Assembly (NCBI GenBank): GCA_002685935.1
Contig: NYZD01000145.1
Span: forward strand, 1-39,189
From: Planctomycetaceae bacterium
GTDB lineage: Bacteria; Planctomycetota; Phycisphaerae; Phycisphaerales; Zrk34
DNA length: 39,189 nt
Reading direction: 5' to 3'
A model generated the notes under the pieces. The model worked only from the letters and a program-made list of their open reading frames with translations. It was not told the origin of the DNA and did not search any database. This document shows positions 2,101 through 37,610 of the stretch, in pieces. Position 1 is the stretch's first letter; every line of letters begins with the position of its first letter. Both the position numbers and the translations under genes were made by a program.

Positions 2101-5100
2101 TCAGATCGGTTGGGTGTTCCTCAAGTTGTAAAACGGCACGACGTATTTTGTGCCGCCATGTCCGCCGCCCATGAATCGCCGCTCGGGTACCGCCAGGTGC
2201 ACCGGGACACTGCGGGAATCATGCAGCATGGCAAGGATCACCCGTTGCTTGACGAGGAAGGTGTGGAACCGGTTTCTCCTAGTCAGTGATTCCAAACGAC
2301 TATTCAGTCTCCGAGCGATCCATTCCTCGTTGGCATGCAGGTCGTCCAGTTCGGCCTCAAGCTCGTCGCGATGTTCGGCGAATCCGTCCAGATCGCTGAT
2401 CGTGCTCTTGGCCATCTTTTCGGTCCACTCGGTCGCGCCGCTGAGCGCCTTTTTCCAGATTGCGCGGCTTGGCATGGCCTGCAAATCCACGAACCAGACA
2501 TTGGAGGCATGATCGGTGTAGAACTGCCGCCACCAGACTGAAGTCGGGGGCGGCGCCAGTTCGCTGACGGGGTGGCTGGACATCTTGGCGTCGAAGTGCT
2601 GATCCAACATCTTGGCAGCCAGCGCGGCGCGCTCGTCGCGCACCTGCACGTCGATCGCGTCGAGCGGCGGCCCGGCGATGGCGCGCCAGAGGTAGAACTC
2701 CATTCCCAATTGGTGGTTTTCGATCTTCTCTATCGTTTCAGCGCGCAACACATGGCGTGCGAAGGCGGGCAGGCCGCGGAGCAGTCGCCGGAAATGATCC
2801 TCGGGCACGGCAATCGCGGCGAGCTTGCGGTACTCGTTGACGACCATGTCGACGAACGCATCGCGTCTATCTTTGGGCAGGGGATTGATTTCTTCGTTGA
2901 GCGGCAGCGCTTCGTGCAGCGCGGCGCGTAAACGAATGGATTGATCGTCGAGGGCTGCCTGTTCGGCCTCGGTGAGCGCTTGGCGAAACGGCGACGCGGA
3001 TTGCATCATCGTTGAATGGGGTATGGCCTCGCGCCGGGCGAGCAGATCGTTCCAGAGCAGGAAGAGCCAGCCGCGCTCGAAGCGGGATGGAGCGAGGCGA
3101 TGGGCGGTTTCAAATGCCTGGATGCAGGCGCGGGCGGTAGGTTCGGATTCCGCGCCGCTGTCGCGCTGGATTCGGGTGGCCCAGGTGCGGGCTTTGAATT
3201 TGGCGAAGCGGTAGTCGGTCATTGGCGGGACGCCATCGGCGCCCTGCTGATCCATGACCTTGAGGAGGGGCATGTATTCATCGTTCCAGAATGCCCGGCG
3301 CAGGGGGATGTAGGCTTGGTCGGCGGACCGGCCTGTGACTTGTGCCATGAGTTCCACGAACGGATCGACGGGCGGCGGGCCGGGCGGGGGGGGGTTGTTG
3401 GATTGCGTGGGTTTCTCGGCTACGGGTGGGTCGGGGGATTCGAATTTGATTGGCAGCCGTGCGCCGCGGGCGATTATGGCGCCGTTGGCATCGACGATCT
3501 GTACCTCGTCGTTGACGGTTTTGATTGTGCGCGGGCCGTCTTTGGTTTCCCAGACGGCTTGGCCGTCTTTGAGCGTCACTTCGCCCATGAAAGAGTACGA
3601 ACTGTTAGCGCGGAGAAAGTATCTATCGCTGTCGAATATGAGAACCACATCAGGACGCAGGACATAACGCACGTTACCTCGGTACACAGCCAGAAGTCCA
3701 TCTTCAATGCCGAACTCCAATCCCGTCACGCCGCTGGGAATGCTGCCACCGGCGGCCGAAGTGGGAATTTCGCCCGAGGCAGCGTAGACGAGCATATTGA
3801 GGAATGCGCTGTACTCTGTGTCCCACGATTGGAAGAGGCTTCCGATCGGCCAGTGCGCCGACTTTCTGTCAGGGCGGACGCCCAGCACCGCCCAGCGCGT
3901 CGAGTCAAAGGCCATTTCGATCAGCACGTAGCGCTGCGCGCTCTTGGCGGGCCAGTCGACACGAGCCATGGCAAACCGACCACGCACGTCAATCTCAGTG
4001 ATGCGCGTCATCGCGTTGGGTTCTTCGGCGAAGACCTTACGGAGCTTGGCTGCGTGTTTTGGCAGTTCGCGCGTTAGGAATGAATGCCGAGGGAAACGGG
4101 AAATCACACCGAAGGTCTGGGAGGCCGTCGCTTCATCATCGCCGTCGACGATGGCTTGCAGGAACTTCGCCGCCGCCTGCCGGACGGGTCCTTCGTAGGC
4201 TTCTCGTTTCGGGTCCATTGCTTCGCGCAGCAGTTGTTGGACTTGGGGATGCGGCCTGGCCAAATGGATCGGGCGTACGGGCGCCTCGTGGAATGGGCCG
4301 CGCGTGATGACCCATGGATCGGCGCCGTGCTCGAGCAAAAGCTCTACCAGATCATGGCGGGCGGTGGCTTCGTCTGCGCTGCCGACGTTCATATGCTCTC
4401 CGGCGGCGATGTGCAGAGGCGTCATTCCCTGGGAGTTGGTGAGCGTGAGATCGGCGTTGTGTTTCAGCAGAAGGCGGGTCATTGGCAGGTCTGCAAATTC
4501 GATCGCGCGGTGAAGCGACGTGGATTTCATATTGCTGGCTGTGATGATGTTTGGATTGGCCCCATGTGACAGCAGCCACTGGGCGAACCGCAGGTTATGA
4601 TCCGCGCGTCGGTGCGATTCACACAGACGAATGAGGGCCGTCGCCCTCCCGCCACCAGTATGATTCACGTCCACGCCCGCCCGCCGCGCGGCGTCGGCGA
4701 GTTCGAGGACGATGGGATGATCTGTCTGGTCGGCAACGGACGCGAGGCTGTGAAGCAGCGTGTTTCCATCATCATCGACCGCAGTCAGCGACGCTTTGTG
4801 TTTGAGAAGGACGCGAATGATTTCGGGTCGGGCATCTTCCTCGGGGGTTGGAAAGTGCAACAGGCGCACCGCGGCGTGGAGCGGGGAACTTAGCCAGTCG
4901 GAGATATTGGCGTAGGACTGTTGGACCCACTTGGGATGTGCGTTCAGTAGTTTGGTGAGTTGCTGGGGGTCGGCGCGGTAGATGGCGCGGAAGACGTGAT
5001 GTGGTCTTGGGCCACGCTTGGCTTGGGGAATGCGGGCGGCGAGCGGCGTGTTGTCAGCGGGCTGATCGACGATCACGTTGCCGTGACGATCTTTGAACCA

Positions 5101-6699
5101 ATCGATGAATCGCGCCAGCTTTTCAAACTGGTTAGTGGGCAACCCATCGACATCGGTGATGCGCCAGCCGGCGTCGGACTTGCTGAGCGTCAACACGATG
5201 TGGTAATCCGACGCTTCGCCAGGGATGGCAAACTCGAAGGCATTGGTGTAGGCAATGGCCTGGGTGTCGGCGACGTGCAGGGCCTGGACGTAGAGCTTAT
5301 CGATGGGGGCTAACAACGCGGGCATCATCAACATTTCGGGAAGGCCCGGGCGGCTTTGCTTGGACATCAGTGCGGTGGCGTGTTCGAACTCGCCGAGGAT
5401 GCAGGCGGTCAATGCCGCTTCGGCGACCTGGCGGGGTGTCTGACGATCCACCTCGGTCGGCCCGGGAACTATCGAACCGGCGTCGGCGGGTCCGACCATT
5501 GCCAGCGGCAAGACCACGCCGGCCAGGACCACCATCGCGACAACCACGCCGAGCCGCGTCCATGCACGGCGATTGCGGCGGGCATCCAGGATGGCACGCA
5601 TCCGCCCCTCCAGCGTCGAGCGACGCGCCATCGCGATCGAACCATACGCCGCGAGTGTCCCTTCCTTCAGACCCGAGGCGATCTCAACCAGATGCGTCGC
5701 GTAATCACTGGACCGTTGCCCGCTGGCCAGCACCAGATCGTCGCACGCTACCTCGGCTTCGCTGTGCATCCGCCTCAGCGCCAGCCAGCACAACGGATTG
5801 AACCAGTACAGCGCACAAGCCAGGCGACCGATCAGTCGGGTCAGGCAGTCATGCCGACGAGCGTGGGCCAACTCGTGAAGCAACACCGCCCATCGTCGAT
5901 CCATCGACCAGTCGTCGGCACTGAGCGGGATCACGATCGTCACGCGGAAGATGCCATAGATCAGCGGCATGGGTTCGGCGCTACTCTTCAGGAGAACCAC
6001 GCGGCGACGAATACCCAGGGACTGTGCGGCCTGGCGAGCAAGCGTCACCCACTCACCGTCGCCGACGCGCTGCGACGTGCGCGCCAGACGCCGCACACTG
6101 GCGCGGCCAAGGAGTATGGGAACGAGACACAGGATGACGCCCGTCGCCCACACGCCGAACGCCCAATGGGTCACGGACAACGCCCGTGAATCCGGCTGGG
6201 GTGATTCGTGCCGCTCCGGTGCCGCGGCGGGAATTGGATCAAAAGTGGCTGCTGGAGGAACGACGGCATCGACAACGCCCGAGGCGTGCTCGGCAGTCGT
6301 CGGCATATGTGTTGACGCAGGTACAATTACCGGCGGAGCGTCAATGGATGTGTCAGAGGCACTGACCCGATCGGAATTCGACGCCCTTTCATCGGTCTGG
6401 TCGACGACGTCGTGGCCTGCGTGCGAACTCTCGGTCAATATACTTGTCGGCGCTTCCGAACGCGCCCATGCAGGCAAGATACGCCACGCCGGCAGCGCGG
6501 CCGACGCGACGGGCAGCAGCAACATCGCCCCGAGCACGAGCGACCAACCCAGATGCCGCGTAGCGGCCGATGTCCGTCGCATGGCCGTGATCGTCACACC
6601 GACAACGATCACCAGCGCGACACTTTTGATCGTCGCGTCCAGCATCCACGGCGCCCATGCTGAAGCATACTCCATGGCAAATTCGATGAAGGTATTCAT
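2101..6699 (-). CDS. Giant BlaR1/MecR1-type M56 metallopeptidase with ankyrin repeats and long extracytoplasmic extension
   Basis: A 1532-residue membrane protein, whereas ordinary BlaR1 is about 600. Residues 20-70 and 176-197 hold membrane helices around a low-complexity loop. The M56 zinc-protease core follows, with H275-E-L-A-H279 and the downstream glutamate of HSEAEVACD (E316) as expected ligands. A last membrane helix lies near 380-402. From there on the chain should be outside the cytoplasm. It holds a domain of about 140 residues, a block of ankyrin-like repeats at roughly 570-825 (TPLHIAAGEH, LLLEHGADP), a mixed region with SnoaL-like and beta-rich segments, a proline-rich linker near 1095-1105, and a C-terminal helical domain I do not recognise. 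The start at 6699 lies 2 bases past the blaI stop. The frame stays open to 6927, but that extension would overlap blaI and carries no family sequence. The inferred role is to sense an external signal and cleave the BlaI repressor. Confidence 0.85.
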   Translation of the reverse strand: MNTFIEFAMEYASAWAPWMLDATIKSVALVIVVGVTITAMRRTSAATRHLGWSLVLGAMLLLPVASAALPAWRILPAWARSEAPTSILTESSHAGHDVVDQTDERASNSDRVSASDTSIDAPPVIVPASTHMPTTAEHASGVVDAVVPPAATFDPIPAAAPERHESPQPDSRALSVTHWAFGVWATGVILCLVPILLGRASVRRLARTSQRVGDGEWVTLARQAAQSLGIRRRVVLLKSSAEPMPLIYGIFRVTIVIPLSADDWSMDRRWAVLLHELAHARRHDCLTRLIGRLACALYWFNPLCWLALRRMHSEAEVACDDLVLASGQRSSDYATHLVEIASGLKEGTLAAYGSIAMARRSTLEGRMRAILDARRNRRAWTRLGVVVAMVVLAGVVLPLAMVGPADAGSIVPGPTEVDRQTPRQVAEAALTACILGEFEHATALMSKQSRPGLPEMLMMPALLAPIDKLYVQALHVADTQAIAYTNAFEFAIPGEASDYHIVLTLSKSDAGWRITDVDGLPTNQFEKLARFIDWFKDRHGNVIVDQPADNTPLAARIPQAKRGPRPHHVFRAIYRADPQQLTKLLNAHPKWVQQSYANISDWLSSPLHAAVRLLHFPTPEEDARPEIIRVLLKHKASLTAVDDDGNTLLHSLASVADQTDHPIVLELADAARRAGVDVNHTGGGRATALIRLCESHRRADHNLRFAQWLLSHGANPNIITASNMKSTSLHRAIEFADLPMTRLLLKHNADLTLTNSQGMTPLHIAAGEHMNVGSADEATARHDLVELLLEHGADPWVITRGPFHEAPVRPIHLARPHPQVQQLLREAMDPKREAYEGPVRQAAAKFLQAIVDGDDEATASQTFGVISRFPRHSFLTRELPKHAAKLRKVFAEEPNAMTRITEIDVRGRFAMARVDWPAKSAQRYVLIEMAFDSTRWAVLGVRPDRKSAHWPIGSLFQSWDTEYSAFLNMLVYAASGEIPTSAAGGSIPSGVTGLEFGIEDGLLAVYRGNVRYVLRPDVVLIFDSDRYFLRANSSYSFMGEVTLKDGQAVWETKDGPRTIKTVNDEVQIVDANGAIIARGARLPIKFESPDPPVAEKPTQSNNPPPPGPPPVDPFVELMAQVTGRSADQAYIPLRRAFWNDEYMPLLKVMDQQGADGVPPMTDYRFAKFKARTWATRIQRDSGAESEPTARACIQAFETAHRLAPSRFERGWLFLLWNDLLARREAIPHSTMMQSASPFRQALTEAEQAALDDQSIRLRAALHEALPLNEEINPLPKDRRDAFVDMVVNEYRKLAAIAVPEDHFRRLLRGLPAFARHVLRAETIEKIENHQLGMEFYLWRAIAGPPLDAIDVQVRDERAALAAKMLDQHFDAKMSSHPVSELAPPPTSVWWRQFYTDHASNVWFVDLQAMPSRAIWKKALSGATEWTEKMAKSTISDLDGFAEHRDELEAELDDLHANEEWIARRLNSRLESLTRRNRFHTFLVKQRVILAMLHDSRSVPVHLAVPERRFMGGGHGGTKYVVPFYNLRNTQPI
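3386..3394. repeat. Homopolymer tract of nine G (nine C on the coding strand)
   Basis: An uninterrupted G9 run sits inside the M56 gene and encodes the proline-rich linker between its middle and C-terminal regions. Such runs are prone to replication slippage and to sequencing error. A one-base change would remove the last third of the protein. The reading frame is intact as given. Confidence 0.9.
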
Positions 6700-6701
6700 G
6701 A

Positions 6702-7085
6702 TCAATCGTCTTTCCGTCGTGCCTCTCGGATGAGCTGCGCCAAGTGCCGCAGATCTTCGTCGGAAATGGTGTTGTTCTGGCGAGACAAATGCGCGGCCAT
6801 GGCGTCCCGGACTGAGCCACCAAAGAACGTGTCGATCACGCGCTGCAGAGCCGGCAATCCCGCACGCCGTCTTGAGATCGTTGGTTTGTAGATGTATTCG
6901 CGCCCACGCGTCGAGTGCGTCAGGCATTGCTTGTCTTCAAGAATGCGTAGCATCACCCGCAAGGCGCCCCGCGTGGGGGCATCTGGAAGATCCTCGCGAA
7001 TCTCGGCACTGGACGCTTCGCCCCGCGCGAAAATCACATCCATGATCTGGCGTTCCCGCCGGCTGAGCTGCGATCCCATGTCCAT
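6702..7085 (-). CDS. BlaI/MecI-family transcriptional repressor
   Basis: A 127-residue winged-helix repressor of the BlaI/MecI/CopY class. The N-terminal half carries the DNA-binding domain: LSRRERQIMDVIFARGEASSAEIRE for the first helices, TRGALRVMLRILEDKQCL as recognition helix, and HSTRGREYIYKP as the wing. The C-terminal third (LQRVIDTFFGGSVRDAMAAHL) is the dimerisation region, where partner M56 proteases normally cut. The ATG at 7085 is preceded by GGGGAG six bases upstream. A second ATG at 7079 is less well placed. The gene is followed after 2 bases by the M56 peptidase, the standard repressor/sensor pair. A palindromic operator overlaps the promoter upstream, so autorepression is likely. 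No beta-lactamase gene lies nearby. In planctomycete-type genomes such pairs are numerous and regulate unknown targets. Confidence 0.93.
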   Translation of the reverse strand: MDMGSQLSRRERQIMDVIFARGEASSAEIREDLPDAPTRGALRVMLRILEDKQCLTHSTRGREYIYKPTISRRRAGLPALQRVIDTFFGGSVRDAMAAHLSRQNNTISDEDLRHLAQLIREARRKDD

Positions 7086-9089: not shown

Positions 9090-10118
9090 TCAATCCTTCT
9101 GACGGATGGCCTTGATCATCATGGGGATAACCTTGCGGAGGTCACCAACGATGCCATAGTGGGCGACGCCGAAGATCGGGGCGTCCTTGTCCCAGTTGAT
9201 GGCGATGATTTTGGCCGACTCCTCCATACCCGCACGATGTTGAACCGCCCCACTGACGCCGCAAGCGATGTAGAGCGCCGGGCGCACCGTCGTGCCGGTC
9301 TGGCCGACCTGGTACTCCTTGCTGATGTAGCCGGCGTCAACCGCGCCACGCGAAGCCCCGACCGCCCCACCGATGGCGCCCGCCAGCTCGTGAATCAACT
9401 GAAAGTCCTGCGCGTTGGCAACGCCCGCGCCGCCGGCGACGATCGTCCGCGCCGCCTTCAGGTCCACCGTTCGCTTCTCGCGGTGACGTTCAATGAGCTT
9501 CACGGACAGATCGAAATCATCGAACTCGATGGCTTCCTCGACGATCTGTCCGCGTCGGCCGGGGTCGGCGTCGTTGAGGCGCATGACGCCCTCACGCACG
9601 GTTGCCATCTGCGGCCAACGGTCGCAGTTGATGATGGTGGCGATGATGTTCCCGCCGAACGCCGGGCGGACCTGCAAGAGAAGATTCTCGTGGACGGTTT
9701 TTGTCTTGGGCTCGGTGTATGCGCCGATGTCGAGGTCGGTGCAATCGGCGGTGAGACCGGCTCGCATCGCGCTGGCAATGCGTGGAGCCAGATCGCGTCC
9801 CTGGGCGGTGGCGCCATAGAGCACGATCTGTGGCTCGTGCTTCTGAATCAACTGGCACATCACGCGGGCGTACGGCAGCGTGCGGTAGTGCTCGAGTCGG
9901 GTGTCATGCACGTGGTACACGTTGTCAGCGCCAAGGGCGATCAGACGATAGGACAATTCGCGTACGTTCCAGCCGATCAGCACCGCGCCCATCGAAACGT
10001 TCAGCCGGTCGGCCAGCTCACGCGCCTTGCCGCACAACTCGAGGGAGACGTCACTGAGATGCTCGTCCTCCTGTTCGGCAAAGACCCAGACTTCGCCCTG
10101 TCGATTCGGTTCAATCAT
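9090..10118 (-). CDS. etfA: Electron transfer flavoprotein alpha subunit
   Basis: A 342-residue ETF alpha subunit (FixB family). The N-terminal half (VWVFAEQEDEHLSDVSLEL, GAVLIG) is the alpha/beta domain that pairs with the beta subunit. The C-terminal half is the FAD domain, with VGQTGTTVRPALYIACGVSGA and the downstream KIIAINWDKDAPIF signature. Together with ETF beta it takes electrons from acyl-CoA dehydrogenases and gives them to a membrane quinone oxidoreductase. The gene lies 133 bases downstream of etfB, with a stable hairpin between them, and 62 bases upstream of the acyl-CoA dehydrogenase. The ATG at 10118 has only a weak Shine-Dalgarno (AAGAG). I see no feature that decides between a conventional and a bifurcating ETF. 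Confidence 0.95.
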   Translation of the reverse strand: MIEPNRQGEVWVFAEQEDEHLSDVSLELCGKARELADRLNVSMGAVLIGWNVRELSYRLIALGADNVYHVHDTRLEHYRTLPYARVMCQLIQKHEPQIVLYGATAQGRDLAPRIASAMRAGLTADCTDLDIGAYTEPKTKTVHENLLLQVRPAFGGNIIATIINCDRWPQMATVREGVMRLNDADPGRRGQIVEEAIEFDDFDLSVKLIERHREKRTVDLKAARTIVAGGAGVANAQDFQLIHELAGAIGGAVGASRGAVDAGYISKEYQVGQTGTTVRPALYIACGVSGAVQHRAGMEESAKIIAINWDKDAPIFGVAHYGIVGDLRKVIPMMIKAIRQKD

Positions 10119-12712: not shown

Positions 12713-14128
12713 ATGATCGCTACCGGAATTAGAGTGCTCACCGAAGATGAGCGTGATCAGATCCACGCTGCGGCACTGCGCGTGCTCGACGCAGGCGGCG
12801 TGGCCGTCGAAGATAACGAACTAAGGGCACAGCTCACAGCGCGCGGCGCGACGCCCGGGCGGACCGCGGAGCAGGTCCGCATCCCATCGCAGCTCGTCGC
12901 CGAATGCCTGGAAACCGTCAACCGCGCGCCCGTCCTGCAATGCGTCAACGGCAAGACGCTCAAGCACGGGCCGAACGATCGCTACTACAGTGCGACGGTG
13001 ACCGACCCGTATATCGTCGACGCAGTGGATGGCATTCGCAGGCCTGCTCTTGACGACATCGCCCGACATGCGCGGTTGTGTGATGCGCTGCCGCTGATCG
13101 ATCACGTTCACCTGATGGACGACACGGTGCCGGACCTGGATTCGCACGTGTCGGAACTGAAGGGTCTGGAAGCGTTCGTCGCAAACACCACCACCGCCTA
13201 CCACTGCGCGCCCGGTTCGCTGGAGGGCACGCGGTATTGGATCGAAATCGCCGAGATCATGGCCGGAGGTAGCCTGGAACGCTGCCCGATCCTCAATGCG
13301 TACGTTCCCTCGGTCAGCCCGCTCACACTCACAGATTTCAACACCAGGCAGTTGAGAATGTTCCTCGAACACGGCGTGTTGTGCCAGGTCGGCCCATGCG
13401 CGATCGCGGGCGCCACCGCGCCTTATCCGGTGGCCGGCCTCGTGGTCCAGTCGTGGGCGGAGGTATTGGCGATGGTCGTGGCCGCGCAGGTGATCAAGCC
13501 GGGTGCGCCGATCGCCAGCGGCGGTGGCGGAGCGCATCCGATGGACATGCGCGACGGCGCAAGCCTGTACAGCGGCGTATCCAAAGCATTGGCCAGCGCC
13601 GCTATGGTCGAACTGGGCGGTGGGTTCGATCTTCCAACGCTGAGCGGCAATCTGTCAACGCTATGTTCAAACTACACCGTGCAAAACGGGATCGAATCGG
13701 CAGTCGGCGCATTTGGCACGTTCTTCGGCCGAGTGAGTTGCTACGGAACGATGGGATCGATCGCCAACGCCTGCGGCATGAGCGCCACTCAGATTGTGCT
13801 GCATCATGATCTCATTGAGACGCTGGAGAATTTCCGCGCAGGAATTGACGTGACCGACGAGAAACTCGCCGTTGCGTCCATTCTCGACACGGGCCCGAAG
13901 GGAGATTTCCTGACCGATCCGCTCACGCTGCGGTACATGCACAGCGATGAACATTTCTTTTCGCCGTGTCTCGAGGTGTGCGCGGCTGGGCAGGATCAAA
14001 GCACGATGACCGACCGGGCAACACGACGAGCCGAGGACCTGATCGCGACCCACGAGCCGACGGTGCCGCAGGATCGCGTTGACGAAGTCCGTCGATACGT
14101 AGAGCGAGAACTGAAGGCGTTGGGCTAG
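12713..14128 (+). CDS. MttB-family (trimethylamine/betaine-type) corrinoid methyltransferase, non-pyrrolysine
   Basis: A 471-residue member of the MttB superfamily. Family stretches include LTEDERDQIHAAALRVLDAGG at the N-terminus, a glycine-rich GGGGAHPMDMRDG, and MGSIANACGMSATQIVLHHDLIETLENFR towards the C-terminus. The reading frame has no internal TAG, so this is the pyrrolysine-free type. Characterised non-pyrrolysine members (for example MtgB) demethylate glycine betaine or other quaternary amines and pass the methyl group to a corrinoid protein. No corrinoid protein gene is in the window, so the partner must be elsewhere. The substrate is unknown. The gene ends with a TAG; the frame after that stop stays open into the next gene, which is also a methyltransferase-like protein, 156 bases on. 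The start is the ATG at 12713, which has only a weak upstream purine stretch. Confidence 0.9.
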   Translation: MIATGIRVLTEDERDQIHAAALRVLDAGGVAVEDNELRAQLTARGATPGRTAEQVRIPSQLVAECLETVNRAPVLQCVNGKTLKHGPNDRYYSATVTDPYIVDAVDGIRRPALDDIARHARLCDALPLIDHVHLMDDTVPDLDSHVSELKGLEAFVANTTTAYHCAPGSLEGTRYWIEIAEIMAGGSLERCPILNAYVPSVSPLTLTDFNTRQLRMFLEHGVLCQVGPCAIAGATAPYPVAGLVVQSWAEVLAMVVAAQVIKPGAPIASGGGGAHPMDMRDGASLYSGVSKALASAAMVELGGGFDLPTLSGNLSTLCSNYTVQNGIESAVGAFGTFFGRVSCYGTMGSIANACGMSATQIVLHHDLIETLENFRAGIDVTDEKLAVASILDTGPKGDFLTDPLTLRYMHSDEHFFSPCLEVCAAGQDQSTMTDRATRRAEDLIATHEPTVPQDRVDEVRRYVERELKALG

Positions 14129-31730: not shown

Positions 31731-31747
31731 GACGTGTGTCGGCACAG

Positions 31748-31781
31748 CGCCGGGCGCCTGGGTATTGTTCGATGCCCGGCG
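31748..31781 (+). other. Leader hairpin upstream of the iron-sulfur/NrfD gene
   Basis: Perfect 8-base arms CGCCGGGC/GCCCGGCG with an 18-base loop lie between the promoter and the ATG at 31820, inside a leader of about 90 bases. It could modulate translation. If translation instead began at the in-frame GTG at 31736, this stretch would be coding, but it gives no recognisable sequence. Confidence 0.45.
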
Positions 31782-31819
31782 GACCCCGCGCCGGGTACAC
31801 ACGCTGCTACGAGGTCGGC

Positions 31820-34129
31820 ATGAGTTGCGGCGGATTATCGTCTTCGGCTGGGAAACCGGGTGCGCCCAAATCGTCCGATCGGCGGGATTTCCTGATGCAT
31901 CTGGGGCAAATCGCGGCGGCGGGCGCTGTGGTCGGGTGCCCGCAACTGGCGCTTGGCGCAGATGGCGGTGACGGTGCCCACGGTGGCACCCCATCCGACT
32001 CGATGGGCGTGCTTGTCGACCTGTCTGCGTGTGTGGGATGCCGGCTCTGCGAATACGCGTGCAAGAAGGCCAACGGCATCGACCCGGGGACTGTGGAATC
32101 CTATGACGATCAGTCGGTCTTCGAGCACAAGCGGCGACCGGCGCCCGATGCCTTCACGGTCGTCAACGCCTGGGATAATGTCGGCGATGGTCATCCCCCC
32201 GTCTACGCTAAGCTCAACTGCATGCACTGCAACCAGCCGGCTTGCGTCTCGGCGTGCATCGTCGGAGCACTGCGCAAGCAGGACAACGGGGCCGTCACCT
32301 ACGACGCGTGGAGGTGCATCGGCTGCAGGTATTGCATGGTGGCCTGCCCATTCCAGTTGCCGGCCTACAGTTACGATGACGCGTTGACGCCACAGATCAT
32401 GAAGTGCCAGTTCTGCTTTGCCCGGGCGGATGATGTCGAGCAGCCAGCTTGTGTCGAGGCGTGTCCTCGGCAGGTGTTGACCTATGGGCGCCGCAACGAT
32501 CTGCTGCAGATAGCCCACGATCGCATCGGCGAGCACTCCGACCGCTACGTCGATCACGTCTACGGCGAACATGAGATCGGCGGCACATGCTGGTTGTACC
32601 TGTCGCCCGTACCGTTCGAGCAGGTCGGGTTTCTGACGCTCGACGACAAAGCGCCGCCGGTGCTGACCGAGACCATCCAGCACAGCGTCTTCAAGTACGG
32701 CCTCCCGCCGCTGGCGGTCTACGGTGCCCTCGGGGCCGCGATGTTCCTGACGCGCCCGCGTCCAACAAGCGATGGCGGCGCCGCCGCGTTGTCCCACGAT
32801 ACGTCCAGCGCAGATGATCGCGCCGGTCCGAATCACTCCGGTCCCGGGCAGCCGATGCTGGCTCTCGCTGCCGGCGGCGCCATGGCGTTGCCCGCGACCG
32901 CGATCACGGTCGCCGCACCACGTCAGACGCCTCACGAGATAGACGATCACGCACCCGCCCCCGTTCGCCGCAAGTTCCTCACCCCCGGCGTGCTCGTGTT
33001 GCTGGGTCTGGCGCTGACCGGGCTGGGCTTCGCCACGTACCGATTCATCTTCGGCCTCGGCGCCAGCACAAACCTGGATCAGCAACACCCGTGGGGCATC
33101 TGGATTGCGATCGATGTCGCCAGCGGCGTGGCGCTCGCCGCGGGCGGGTTCACCACCGCAGCGCTGGCACACGTGTTCCACCGGCACCACTACCACGCCA
33201 TCGCCCGCCCCGCGCTGCTCACCGCGATGCTCGGCTACACCTTCGTTTCACTGGGCCTGCAGGCCGATCTCGGACGCTATTACAACGTCTGGCACCCGAT
33301 GATTATGTGGCAGGGCAACTCGGTGCTGTTTGAGGTGGGCCTGTGCGTGATGGCCTACCTGACCGTGCTGTATCTGGAGTTCACCCCGGTGGCGTGCGAG
33401 CGGTTCCTTTCCGAACCCAAACGGTTCCCGCGCATCAGCCGCATCGCCGCCTTCGTGCACGGCAAGCTTGAACGCTTCATGTTCTTGCTCGTGATCGCCG
33501 GATGCGTGCTGTCGTGCCTGCACCAATCATCGCTGGGGAACCTGATGGTGATCGCGCCCAACAAGCTGCATCCGTTGTGGTGGAGCCCGATCCTGGCGCT
33601 GCTCTTCCTCCTGTCCGCGATCGCCGTGGGCTTCCCGATGGTCATCTGGGAGTCGCTGTTTGCCTCGTGGTCACTGAAGCTGAAGCCGGAAATGAGCATA
33701 CTCGGCCCATTGGCGCGATACGTGCCGATGCTCTTAGGAATCTACCTGATCGTAAAGCTCGGCGACATGGCCTGGCGCGGCACGTACGTCTACCTCGCCG
33801 AGATGTCGCCGCAGAGCGTGTGTTGGCTGATCGAGATCTTCGTGGGCGTGATCATCCCGATCGCGATGATGCTGTCGCGTCGCGTCCGCCAGTCGCCGCG
33901 CCTGATCTTCGCCGCCGCGACCATGATCGTGCTGGGTGTCGTGTTCAATCGCGTCAACGTGTTCCTCGTCGGTTACAGCCCGCCGTTCACGGAAGGTTCA
34001 TACGTTCCCGCCGTCGCCGAAATCGCCGTGACAATCGGCCTGATCGCGACGTTGATGCTCTGCTACCGGGCGCTGGCGACGATCTTCCCCGTCATCAGCG
34101 GGCATCGGGCCGGGGAACCGCATGAATGA
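31820..34129 (+). CDS. Tat-exported 4x[4Fe-4S] protein fused to NrfD/HybB-type membrane subunit
   Basis: A 769-residue fusion. Residues 20-46 are a Tat signal (R21-R22-D-F-L, then a hydrophobic stretch). Residues 60-260 are a DmsB/HybA/HmcB-type ferredoxin with 16 Cys for four clusters: C71-x2-C-x2-C-x3-C81, C134-x2-C-x4-C-x3-C146, C166-x2-C-x2-C-x3-C176 and C196-x2-C-x11-C-x3-C215. A helix near 294-311 resembles the anchor of HybA-type proteins. An Ala/Pro-rich linker (to about 385) leads to about nine or ten helices of an NrfD/HybB-type quinone-binding subunit (390-760, with LGLALTGLGFATYRFIFG and HPWGIWIAID). Normally these are two proteins. The ATG at 31820 follows GAGG. The next gene, a multiheme cytochrome, overlaps by 8 bases. 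The inferred role is electron transfer between menaquinone and the periplasmic cytochrome. No catalytic molybdopterin or hydrogenase subunit is adjacent. Confidence 0.9.
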   Translation: MSCGGLSSSAGKPGAPKSSDRRDFLMHLGQIAAAGAVVGCPQLALGADGGDGAHGGTPSDSMGVLVDLSACVGCRLCEYACKKANGIDPGTVESYDDQSVFEHKRRPAPDAFTVVNAWDNVGDGHPPVYAKLNCMHCNQPACVSACIVGALRKQDNGAVTYDAWRCIGCRYCMVACPFQLPAYSYDDALTPQIMKCQFCFARADDVEQPACVEACPRQVLTYGRRNDLLQIAHDRIGEHSDRYVDHVYGEHEIGGTCWLYLSPVPFEQVGFLTLDDKAPPVLTETIQHSVFKYGLPPLAVYGALGAAMFLTRPRPTSDGGAAALSHDTSSADDRAGPNHSGPGQPMLALAAGGAMALPATAITVAAPRQTPHEIDDHAPAPVRRKFLTPGVLVLLGLALTGLGFATYRFIFGLGASTNLDQQHPWGIWIAIDVASGVALAAGGFTTAALAHVFHRHHYHAIARPALLTAMLGYTFVSLGLQADLGRYYNVWHPMIMWQGNSVLFEVGLCVMAYLTVLYLEFTPVACERFLSEPKRFPRISRIAAFVHGKLERFMFLLVIAGCVLSCLHQSSLGNLMVIAPNKLHPLWWSPILALLFLLSAIAVGFPMVIWESLFASWSLKLKPEMSILGPLARYVPMLLGIYLIVKLGDMAWRGTYVYLAEMSPQSVCWLIEIFVGVIIPIAMMLSRRVRQSPRLIFAAATMIVLGVVFNRVNVFLVGYSPPFTEGSYVPAVAEIAVTIGLIATLMLCYRALATIFPVISGHRAGEPHE

Positions 34130-37100
34130 ACCCCGATCTCATCGCTCGGCTTTCCGCATTATCGCCGCCGCGGTGCTTGCAGTCATCACCATGCTACTCA
34201 TGACCGCCCGGGCGCAGGAGGATGAACCGGTGGACATGGGGCCGGACGTCGTGATTCTGCGCGAACTGCAGGACATATACGAGCCGGTGCCGTTCGATCA
34301 CAAGTCGCACGCCCAGATGGCGCAGATGTGGTACGGGTGTGTGACGTGTCACCATCGCCCACCGCACCCAACGGAAACCGACCCGAACGATGATGCGACG
34401 GCGCCGCCACCCCGCGCACACACGCAGGAGGAATCCGAGCAGATTCCTGCGTGCAAGTCGTGTCATCCGGTGTCAGGCGAGGACACCGATATCCGCATGC
34501 CAAGCCTGAAGGGCGCGTACCATCGCCAATGCCTCAACTGTCATAAGGACTGGTCGGACGCCAACAACTGCGTCGTGTGCCATGAGCCGATCGAGGGCCG
34601 CGATCCGGCTTCGGCAGAGCCCACGCCCGGCGACGTCATCGCCCGAATGCACCCGCCGCTTGACCCGCCGAACGTCAAGGTCTACCGGACCCGCTTCACC
34701 CCCGTCGACGGCAGTAACGTGATGTTCCGACACGACGAGCACGTCGCGCGGTTCGGCCTGACGTGCGTGGACTGCCATCACGGCGACACCTGCGCCAATT
34801 GCCACCAACCCGCCGCAACGCCCGGACGACACAAGGTGCTGCGGCCCGCCCGATCATGGCGGCAGTCCCATGGCCCATGCATGAGCTGCCACCAGGGCCA
34901 GTCGTGCCGACACTGCCACTATCACGACGATGAAGAGCCGCCGCCGTCGTTCGATCATCAAACGACCGGCCAGACGCTGGACGAAGACCACGCCACATTC
35001 GGATGCCGACCGTGCCATCAGCAGTTAGACTTCCAGGCCCAACCCTCGTGTGACACCGCTGGATGTCACGATCGTGATGAACCAATCACCTTCCCTGATG
35101 ACCGACCCGGCGCCGTTTTGGCGATGCCGGCACCCGATGAGAACCTGACGCCAACGTCACCCGTCACGATCAAGGGACCGAGGGTCATGCCCGACTGGTA
35201 CCGCGATCGGTATGGAATCGACGAGACCGATGTCGCCCAGTCAACCAACGAGCCGCCACCAACATCAGATGACATCAATACGCCGCCGCCTACCGCGCTG
35301 ACTACGACACCGGATGTTGAACCCCCCGAGCTCCCGCCACTGGCATTGAAGCACGGGCGTCCTACGCAAATCGTCGCCGCGAACCGATGCGCCACGCCCG
35401 ACTGCCACGCCGCCGTCAAGATGTCCGCGTATGTTCACGGGCCTGTCAGTATCGACGCCTGCGATGTCTGCCATCAGCCGCTCGATGTCGAGACCCACAC
35501 GTTCCGAATGCTTCGCGACGGCCCGGAGTTGTGCACCTATTGCCACGAGTTCGCCGGACGCCCCATGCCGGTGATGCACAAGCCGGTGGAAAGAGGTGAA
35601 TGTCTGGGCTGCCACGATCCGCACGGTGGGCATGATCGAACGCTGACGCGCGAGGATTCGATACCGCAGTTGTGCGGGCGCTGTCACGACAGCGCCGCGT
35701 GGAATCGGTCGGCGCCGCACGCGCCCGTAGCCGATGGACGATGCGTGTCCTGCCACGCACCGCATGGCTCGGTATTCCCGGGCCTCCTCGATGCCACCGG
35801 CCCCGACCTGTGTCTGGCCTGCCACGACAAGTTCGACCGTCGCCTCGGCGACGTCCGGTTCATGCACAAAGCGCTGGAAGACGGCTGCAAAGTCTGCCAT
35901 GACGTGCATGGGTCTGATTTCCCGATGACGATCAGGCAGCCCCTGACCGCGACCTGCGCCAAATGCCATGAGGAAGTAGAGAATCGCGCAACCGGCGCCC
36001 AGTATTCCCATTCGGTCGTCACGACCGATCGCGCCTGCCTGAACTGTCACACCCCGCACGGCGGCAATGTCCCGGCGCTGATGATCGATCGGCAGGCTGA
36101 CGTCTGCATGCAATGTCACGACGAGGAAATTGATCTCGCCGACGGACGCACCGTCAAAGCCACGCCCGAAGTCATGGACCCGCAGGTCCGCAAGCACGGG
36201 CCGATCAGGGACGACGAGTGCAGCGCGTGCCACGAGCCACACGGATCGGATCGTGCGCTGCTGTTGGCCAAATCCTATGACTGGGACATCGCCCCTCAAT
36301 TCACGATGCCGGCGAATGAGTTGTGTTTCGACTGCCATGACAAGCGCCTCGCCGAAGATCAGCGTCTTGATGGCGTGACTCACTTCCGCGACGGTGACAT
36401 GAACCTGCACTACGTCCACCTCGCCCGGCGTTCATGGGTACGGTATTGCCCCGCCTGCCACAGTCCCCACGGCAGCCGGCAGGATCAGAACGTGCGCCAG
36501 TTCGTCAGCTTCGGGCAGTGGCAACTACCAATCCAATTCGAGCGCACGGCGACCGGGGGTACATGTACGCCCGGCTGTCACCTGCCGTTCGATTACGACC
36601 GTGAGCAGCCTGTCGGCTATGATCGGCAGAAGCCGGCGTCCGACGATCCGCGCCACGCCGCGCCGACCACTGCCCTCCACGCCAAGATTGTCCGAATCAC
36701 TATGCCCGCTCCCGATGGCGATGCCGCCCAGCAGTGGAAGATCACCTCATGGCAGGCGAAGGACGCGACCGGCCGGGCCCTCGTCGTGCCCGACCCGCAG
36801 CGGCCAAGCATCCTGCTGTTTCTCCGCCCCGACGCGCCGCAGGCGAAGGCGACGCTTCAAGTGCTCGCCGCCGCGCTCCAGCCTCGGGCCTCGATGCAGA
36901 CCATCGTCATCCTCAACGGCGAGTCGATGCCACAACAATGGGCCGTCGTCACTCAAGACTCACCCGAGTCCTGGGCCGTTGTGATGGATCCGGACGCCCG
37001 TTTGGCCCAACAGCTTGGCGTCTCCGCCTGGCCGACCGTGTTCATCGTGCGCCATGACGGCGTCGTCGCCAGCGTCGGCGGCACGGCGCCATCTTTGACC

Positions 37101-37610
37101 ACGAAGCTCAACGCCTACATCGACTGGGCGACGGGCAAAGCCACATCGCCCGCCATCGACGAGCAACCCACCGAACACCAGACCATCAGCGACACACTTC
37201 CCCGACAGACCGCATGGGTTCTTTTCACCGCCCAGAATATGCTGGACGAAGGCAACGCAGCACAGGCGGCACAGTCCCTCAACGACGCGATCAAGCGACA
37301 ACCGGACTCGACTCCGCTTCAGATTGCCTTGATCGAAGCAATGATCTCAGCGGATCAGGCCGACGAAGCGATAGATCGGTTCGATCAGCTTCCCTCCGGC
37401 GCGATGCCGCCCGGACGCAGCGTTTTGCTGCGGGCCCGCCTGCTGACCGCGATGGACCGGACGACCGAAGCGCTGGACCTGTTGCGCGAACTGCTGGCAG
37501 ATGATCCCGATCTGGCTGATGCACATTTCCTGACCGGTCTGATCCATCAGGCCCAGGGAAACTGGGAGGAAGCGGCGGCGGCCTTCCGCGCGGCACATGA
37601 TTCACGCTAG
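34122..37610 (+). CDS. 25-haem cytochrome c fused to thioredoxin-like and TPR domains
   Basis: A 1162-residue exported protein with signal core FRIIAAAVLAVITMLLMTARA. Between C73 and H820 I count 22 CXXCH sites plus two CX4CH (CDTAGCH, CATPDCH) and one CX3CH (CTPGCH), 25 candidate haems. Six of the later sites have the CXXCHxPHG/VHG pattern of doubled-CXXCH domains (for example CLGCHDPHG, CVSCHAPHG). A Pro/Thr-rich linker near residues 340-420 separates two haem blocks. After the haems, about 850-1010 is a thioredoxin-like domain with the cis-Pro region W970-P-T-V-F-I-V but no CXXC, and 1025-1160 holds about three or four TPR repeats ending ANWEEAAAAF-like. The gene overlaps the iron-sulfur/NrfD gene (ATG at 34122 before its TGA), so the two are translationally coupled. 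The protein should act outside the cytoplasmic membrane as acceptor or donor for that complex. The final partner is unknown. Confidence 0.9.
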   Translation: MNEPRSHRSAFRIIAAAVLAVITMLLMTARAQEDEPVDMGPDVVILRELQDIYEPVPFDHKSHAQMAQMWYGCVTCHHRPPHPTETDPNDDATAPPPRAHTQEESEQIPACKSCHPVSGEDTDIRMPSLKGAYHRQCLNCHKDWSDANNCVVCHEPIEGRDPASAEPTPGDVIARMHPPLDPPNVKVYRTRFTPVDGSNVMFRHDEHVARFGLTCVDCHHGDTCANCHQPAATPGRHKVLRPARSWRQSHGPCMSCHQGQSCRHCHYHDDEEPPPSFDHQTTGQTLDEDHATFGCRPCHQQLDFQAQPSCDTAGCHDRDEPITFPDDRPGAVLAMPAPDENLTPTSPVTIKGPRVMPDWYRDRYGIDETDVAQSTNEPPPTSDDINTPPPTALTTTPDVEPPELPPLALKHGRPTQIVAANRCATPDCHAAVKMSAYVHGPVSIDACDVCHQPLDVETHTFRMLRDGPELCTYCHEFAGRPMPVMHKPVERGECLGCHDPHGGHDRTLTREDSIPQLCGRCHDSAAWNRSAPHAPVADGRCVSCHAPHGSVFPGLLDATGPDLCLACHDKFDRRLGDVRFMHKALEDGCKVCHDVHGSDFPMTIRQPLTATCAKCHEEVENRATGAQYSHSVVTTDRACLNCHTPHGGNVPALMIDRQADVCMQCHDEEIDLADGRTVKATPEVMDPQVRKHGPIRDDECSACHEPHGSDRALLLAKSYDWDIAPQFTMPANELCFDCHDKRLAEDQRLDGVTHFRDGDMNLHYVHLARRSWVRYCPACHSPHGSRQDQNVRQFVSFGQWQLPIQFERTATGGTCTPGCHLPFDYDREQPVGYDRQKPASDDPRHAAPTTALHAKIVRITMPAPDGDAAQQWKITSWQAKDATGRALVVPDPQRPSILLFLRPDAPQAKATLQVLAAALQPRASMQTIVILNGESMPQQWAVVTQDSPESWAVVMDPDARLAQQLGVSAWPTVFIVRHDGVVASVGGTAPSLTTKLNAYIDWATGKATSPAIDEQPTEHQTISDTLPRQTAWVLFTAQNMLDEGNAAQAAQSLNDAIKRQPDSTPLQIALIEAMISADQADEAIDRFDQLPSGAMPPGRSVLLRARLLTAMDRTTEALDLLRELLADDPDLADAHFLTGLIHQAQGNWEEAAAAFRAAHDSR

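Follow-up and report, generated by a model that had tools for sequence, protein, structure and literature searches.

A 25-haem-site cytochrome merged with a cysteine-free thioredoxin-TPR tail in an NrfD-linked operon of Planctomycetota

Why would a multihaem cytochrome carry a thioredoxin-like domain and TPR repeats on its own chain? This question is raised by a gene at positions 34122–37610 (+ strand) of contig NYZD01000145.1 from Planctomycetaceae bacterium (assembly GCA_002685935.1), the whole 39,189-nucleotide stretch of which was analysed and is called the window here. The gene encodes 1162 residues, comprising two haem domains (N and M) followed by a tail with a thioredoxin-like and a TPR domain (Trx-TPR). 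By sequence comparison, this 25-haem chain arose by the merging of two cytochromes, with 10 and 15 haems, and a Trx-TPR protein. Though unusual as a merger, it stays within the known type of NrfD-linked multihaem respiratory chains and is no new type, and its interest lies in the conserved pairing of a cytochrome with a Trx-TPR protein and in the fusion of the two, not in the number of haems. A search of open-access papers found no description of this N-M-Trx-TPR architecture for Planctomycetota.

The gene is a single uninterrupted open reading frame of 1162 codons. Its translation starts with a signal-peptide-like stretch (residues 1–31, 34122–34214) and contains 22 CXXCH, two CX4CH and one CX3CH motifs, and all 50 cysteines were assigned to these 25 sites, so that the tail holds none. 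Shuffled copies of the protein contained 0.12 CXXCH motifs on average and two at most (2000 shuffles), and Pfam matched the haem part to Paired_CXXCH_1 (1.8e-56) as well as to the Cytochrome_C7 and class III cytochrome families. All 25 CH sites, including the three variant spacings, were invariant in a three-way alignment at ∼41% identity, and from these motifs we infer that the chain would be loaded with 25 haems. The first-pass annotation, made from the letters of the window, had already read one signal-peptide-bearing chain with 22 CXXCH and three variant motifs, and had named a frameshift or an assembly join as what would overturn it. Such an artefact was ruled out by the presence of the same one-chain protein in five independent genomes (that of the window, G006, G017, G129 and G156), among them the complete chromosome CP050848 of Planctomycetales bacterium ZRK34 (G006) and Phycisphaera sp. 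RI_382 (G017). The window's genome (3.5 Mb, 79% complete) shares its family with G006 and hence falls in Planctomycetota; a viral origin was ruled out because no PHROGs match was found. Within this 79% complete genome, Paired_CXXCH was confined to the window contig, and the CXXCH pattern counted at the DNA level over the whole genome showed no excess over a reversed control.

The N domain (residues 41–335, 34242–35126, + strand, as are all features below unless stated) is class III/HmcA-like and has nine CXXCH and one CX4CH motif (residues 310–316, 35049–35069), giving 10 sites, the number found at all nine NrfD-linked loci compared. Pfam placed Cytochrom_CIII at residues 53–150, and the domain was matched by the structures of HmcA and of nine-haem cytochromes, the likeness being to the C-terminal part of HmcA. 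The M domain (residues 416–840, 35367–36641) is DmsE/MtrA-like and has 15 sites, namely 13 CXXCH, a CX4CH at its start (residues 423–429, 35388–35408) and a CX3CH at its end, directly before the tail (residues 815–820, 36564–36581); the same number was counted at 8/8 complete linked loci. Both CX4CH sites are conserved, and the CX3CH site is conserved across stand-alone as well as linked M domains. The NCBIfam DmsE-family decahaem model matched M at 5.3e-33, GSU2203-family models also matched it, and PDB entry 6r2q_A matched over the region at 3.2e-15. In contrast to the decahaem cytochromes of the MtrA/DmsE family, however, M has 15 sites instead of 10 and the conserved CX4CH and CX3CH at its two ends, and it scored 114.6 bits with TIGR03508, which requires at least 192.2 bits. 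The HmcA model NF045713, which requires at least 400 bits, gave 64 bits, and HmcA itself has 16 sites on a chain that ends after the haem domains, whereas here there are 25 sites and a 342-residue tail. A full-length AlphaFold2 model had predicted local distance difference test (pLDDT) values below 50 in the haem part and was not used.

The tail behind the haem domains consists of a ResA/TlpA-like thioredoxin fold (residues 877–1003, 36750–37130) and a TPR domain of eight helices, or four helix pairs (residues 1026–1161, 37197–37604). Pfam matched TPR_19 (2.8e-11) and TPR_16 (1.6e-8) at residues 1041–1160; it called no thioredoxin domain in the 1162-residue protein itself and found an AhpC-TSA match (2e-5) in a stand-alone Trx-TPR homologue. 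An AlphaFold2 model of residues 845–1162 had a mean pLDDT of 75, mostly above 90 in the TPR blocks, and the solved structures ranked highest by Foldseek were ResA (6.6e-8, TM score for the target 0.77) and then Escherichia coli YbbN/CnoX (8.1e-8). The domain order of haem part, thioredoxin fold and TPR, as well as the missing CXXC pair, had been foreseen from the window alone, with the lack of any structural match named as what would speak against them, and both held. At the place of the ResA/TlpA active site the tail has A-P-Q-A (residues 905–908, 36834–36845), and CXXC was absent from 24/24 aligned Trx-TPR regions. Because the tail has no cysteine it cannot perform thiol-disulfide chemistry, and a redox thioredoxin that reduces the disulfides of haem motifs, as the ResA-like fold might suggest, is ruled out for this chemistry and has a negligible probability.

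How the three parts came together was assessed from the gene order of nine loci, determined by six-frame profile searches. The order HmcB-NrfD, N, M, Trx-TPR was constant as far as the contigs reach. The first-pass annotation had asked whether the chain recurs elsewhere and always follows a ferredoxin-NrfD fusion; an NrfD part lay upstream in 9/9 loci and a complete HmcB-NrfD in 7/9, the contigs of L043 and L063 ending inside NrfD with HmcB out of view. N, M and Trx-TPR form one chain in five loci. N is a separate gene in the other four (L042, L043, L044 and L065), where a stop follows N and M restarts with its own signal-peptide-like stretch; the contig of L042 ends inside M, and where the contig of a split locus reaches Trx-TPR, M and Trx-TPR are again fused. 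One of the split loci, L043, belongs to Victivallales of the phylum Lentisphaerota. G150 (L065), considered at first as a full-length chain with one TGA, was ruled out as such since a second gene with its own signal peptide begins after the stop.

M-type cytochromes also occur without the NrfD-linked operon, and the Trx-TPR gene lay directly downstream on the same strand of 20 of the 23 such stand-alone M-type genes that come last in their row, or of 17 of 20 without the three loci (L039–L041) that had been found through Trx-TPR. In a tree of M domains, the eight NrfD-linked members formed one clade (100/100), joined at 97/86 by nine stand-alone cytochromes whose genes lie directly before a Trx-TPR gene. 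This grouping, together with the stand-alone gene pairs, indicates that two adjacent genes became one. M and Trx-TPR were probably fused first, and the NrfD-linked 10-haem cytochrome probably joined later; because the deeper forks of the tree were weakly supported, this order of events is only tentatively proposed. A candidate M + Trx-TPR fusion without N in G211 was rejected, being two genes (L066, 9228–10661 and 10707–11735). Matches spanning the whole chain were found in at least 6 of a sample of 301 genomes of the order, including G150 with its stop, and the M-type cytochrome alone was more widespread among them; in a phylum-wide sample, strong matches were found in at least 22 of 392 genomes, all of these counts being lower bounds as many genomes are incomplete.

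The one-chain and the separate forms differ at the place of CXXC. The stand-alone Trx-TPR proteins have Q-x-x-S at the CXXC place in 14/14 cases of the main type and H-G-K-T in a divergent second type; among the split NrfD-linked loci readable at the site, Q-x-x-S is intact in L043, and its Q remains in L044 and L065. The five one-chain forms have neither the Q nor the Q-x-x-S pair there. The simplest reading of these sequences is that the site matters when the protein acts in trans and is under weaker constraint in cis. The same loss would be expected if the loss of a stop codon had merely caught the adjacent Trx-TPR gene, leaving a passenger that lost its original function and serves as a structural spacer or stabiliser at most, and so would the faster evolution of the tail (25–30% identity, compared with ∼40% for whole chains and 48–51% for the N domain). 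However, the M-Trx-TPR fusion is kept without disrupting stops in all eight loci able to show it, in two phyla, and both the TPR helix pattern and the cis-proline position, the latter in every Trx region covering it, are retained, so that we regard a passenger tail as improbable.

The gene directly upstream (31736–34129, likely start ATG at 31820), which shares 8 bases with the cytochrome gene, encodes an HmcB-HmcC (HybA-HybB)-like fusion with the twin-arginine translocation (Tat) signal RRDFLM, four 4Fe-4S motifs and an NrfD membrane part, in agreement with the ferredoxin-NrfD fusion first read there. Pfam matched NrfD (3e-18) and Fer4_11 (2.7e-16), and NCBIfam matched PRK10881/HybB-type (1.7e-99), HmcB (3.3e-93) and HmcC (1.3e-84) models, all under the curated cut-offs. 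The operon accordingly resembles the Hmc complex of sulfate reducers (HmcA/HmcB/HmcC) in combining a periplasmic multihaem cytochrome with an HmcB-type iron-sulfur (Fe-S) protein and its NrfD-type membrane partner, but here a single chain combines HmcB and HmcC, the cytochrome has 25 instead of 16 haem sites, and the MtrA/DmsE-like domain and the Trx-TPR tail are added. Among the top-scoring NCBIfam models for the upstream protein were those of HybA-HybB from E. coli hydrogenase 2 (333.8 and 232.7 bits, both under the cut-offs), where a Tat-exported Fe-S part likewise accompanies an NrfD-type membrane part; a cytochrome here replaces the hydrogenase. Membership of the HmcA, HmcB, HmcC, HybA, HybB and DmsE families was ruled out by scores under the curated cut-offs.

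Hmc and hydrogenase 2 exemplify a well-established quinone-linked module in which NrfD works with a periplasmic Fe-S partner, and electrons should therefore pass between the quinone pool, N and then M. HmcB-NrfD, predicted from its likeness to this module to oxidise or reduce quinone, would exchange electrons with the pool, and the periplasmic Fe-S clusters of HmcB would hand these to N with its 10 haems; M, with 15, would take them outward to a partner, the direction of flow being the presumed one. While this electron relay is well supported, the job of the tail, assembly or docking, is less certain. The pattern of gene neighbours and fusions indicates that the business of the tail is with the 15-haem cytochrome. 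It would derive from a separate periplasmic protein encoded beside a homologous 15-haem cytochrome and most likely act as a holdase or maturation factor for it, the fusion turning a trans factor into a cis factor. An electron relay with such a built-in, non-redox assembly module is the reading that we tentatively prefer, at somewhat less than even confidence.

This assembly role is favoured by the fold matches to ResA, an apocytochrome thiol reductase, and to CnoX, by the lack of CXXC beside a retained cis-proline position, by the unusual CX3CH motif directly before the tail and by a gene for ResB of System II in the window's genome. CnoX is a Trx-TPR holdase that has an SXXC site and, as its reactive cysteine, Cys63 (PMC8129009). 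Like the tail, CnoX (3QOU) has a thioredoxin domain without CXXC followed by TPR; however, it is not part of a larger chain and works in the cytoplasm, passing clients to GroEL, whereas the tail has a ResA-like thioredoxin part without any cysteine, and thus none for trapping substrates, on a chain that looks exported from its signal-peptide-like start and haem sites. The periplasmic TPR domains of CcmI and NrfG bind apocytochrome C-termini, in the case of NrfG for an atypical haem motif (PMC3884852). By analogy, the tail may bind apocytochrome, although NrfG and CcmI are separate System I proteins without a thioredoxin domain and are not fused to a cytochrome. A narrower proposal, which we consider rather unlikely, is that the tail acts within its own chain as a maturation chaperone and would present that chain, above all its CX3CH/CX4CH sites, to a System II haem lyase, as an NrfG-like factor within its own substrate. 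Several points count against assembly as the job of the tail: TPR domains bind many kinds of partners, the weak CcmH/CycH TPR match was no better than those to generic Pfam TPR models, the tail is poorly conserved (25–30% identity), the loss of Q-x-x-S in the one-chain forms also fits relaxed constraint, and in three cases a stand-alone M cytochrome with the same CX3CH site lacks a Trx-TPR gene immediately behind it.

The neighbourhood of the stand-alone genes bears on another possibility, that the Trx-TPR tail is a docking platform holding the mature cytochrome against a partner such as a porin-cytochrome complex, a terminal reductase or an envelope scaffold. TPRs are protein-binding, and stand-alone Trx-TPR genes lie in clusters with a 10-haem MtrA-like cytochrome whose gene overlaps that of a 669-residue putative barrel, an 11-haem NapC/NirT-like protein, NHL proteins and a CbcL-like protein that combines 10 haems with a cytochrome b561-like membrane part. 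The linked N-M-Trx-TPR locus and a stand-alone cluster cytochrome were found together in at least four genomes (G006, G017, G129 and G150). On the other hand, the flanks of the NrfD-linked loci have no partner gene in common beyond the operon itself, and the sole barrel homologue found in the 79% complete window genome (G000:C75, 25% identical) was rejected as a barrel partner, since it lies on a separate contig next to a glycoside hydrolase and other genes without cytochromes, Paired_CXXCH being limited to the window contig. Nor does the window operon have an MtrB-type barrel beside the 25-haem gene, as an MtrA-type transmembrane conduit would. Docking is possible but less probable than the assembly module that we prefer. 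The docking platform or assembly checkpoint suggested by the first-pass annotation fits the latter, both roles still standing as proposals.

A very large multihaem cytochrome has to take up its many haems in order and only then fold. For extended haem motifs beyond the proteobacterial models, the conserved pair of a 15-haem cytochrome and a cysteine-free Trx-TPR protein, fused in one lineage, provides a candidate cytochrome-specific factor that can be tested. Candidates for porin-cytochrome conduits of Planctomycetota are also indicated by the clusters. A large conserved cluster of 13- and 12-haem cytochromes with Trx-TPR, the CbcL-like and NapC/NirT-like proteins and NHL proteins (L039, 2757–16871; L040, 3248–15220; L041, 2241–10204) has the 10-haem MtrA-like gene and the overlapping putative barrel on the opposite strand, and may encode such a conduit. 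The barrel matched neither Pfam nor, as a profile, the solved structures in PDB, and its likeness to MtrB is hence judged from its size, from where it lies and from the 10-haem MtrA-like gene beside it. The b561-like and NapC/NirT-like proteins of the stand-alone clusters are, compared by domain make-up, the same kinds of quinone-linked entry as CbcL and ImcH of Geobacter (PMC6295460), unlike the window operon, which uses NrfD.

Some further genes were noted. The G000:C75 contig of the window's genome (L093, 8304–16137) encodes a TPR and FG-GAP protein followed by a four-CXXCH cytochrome and an FG-GAP/ASPIC-UnbV protein. A Candidatus Eisenbacteria contig (L046, 7875–11078) has an open frame with 42 CXXCH motifs beside a frame with 13. 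The window also encodes a BlaR1-type M56 peptidase of 1608 residues with ankyrin repeats (2101–6927), an electron transfer flavoprotein alpha subunit (9090–10118) and a trimethylamine methyltransferase (MTTB, PF06253) family protein (12713–14128).

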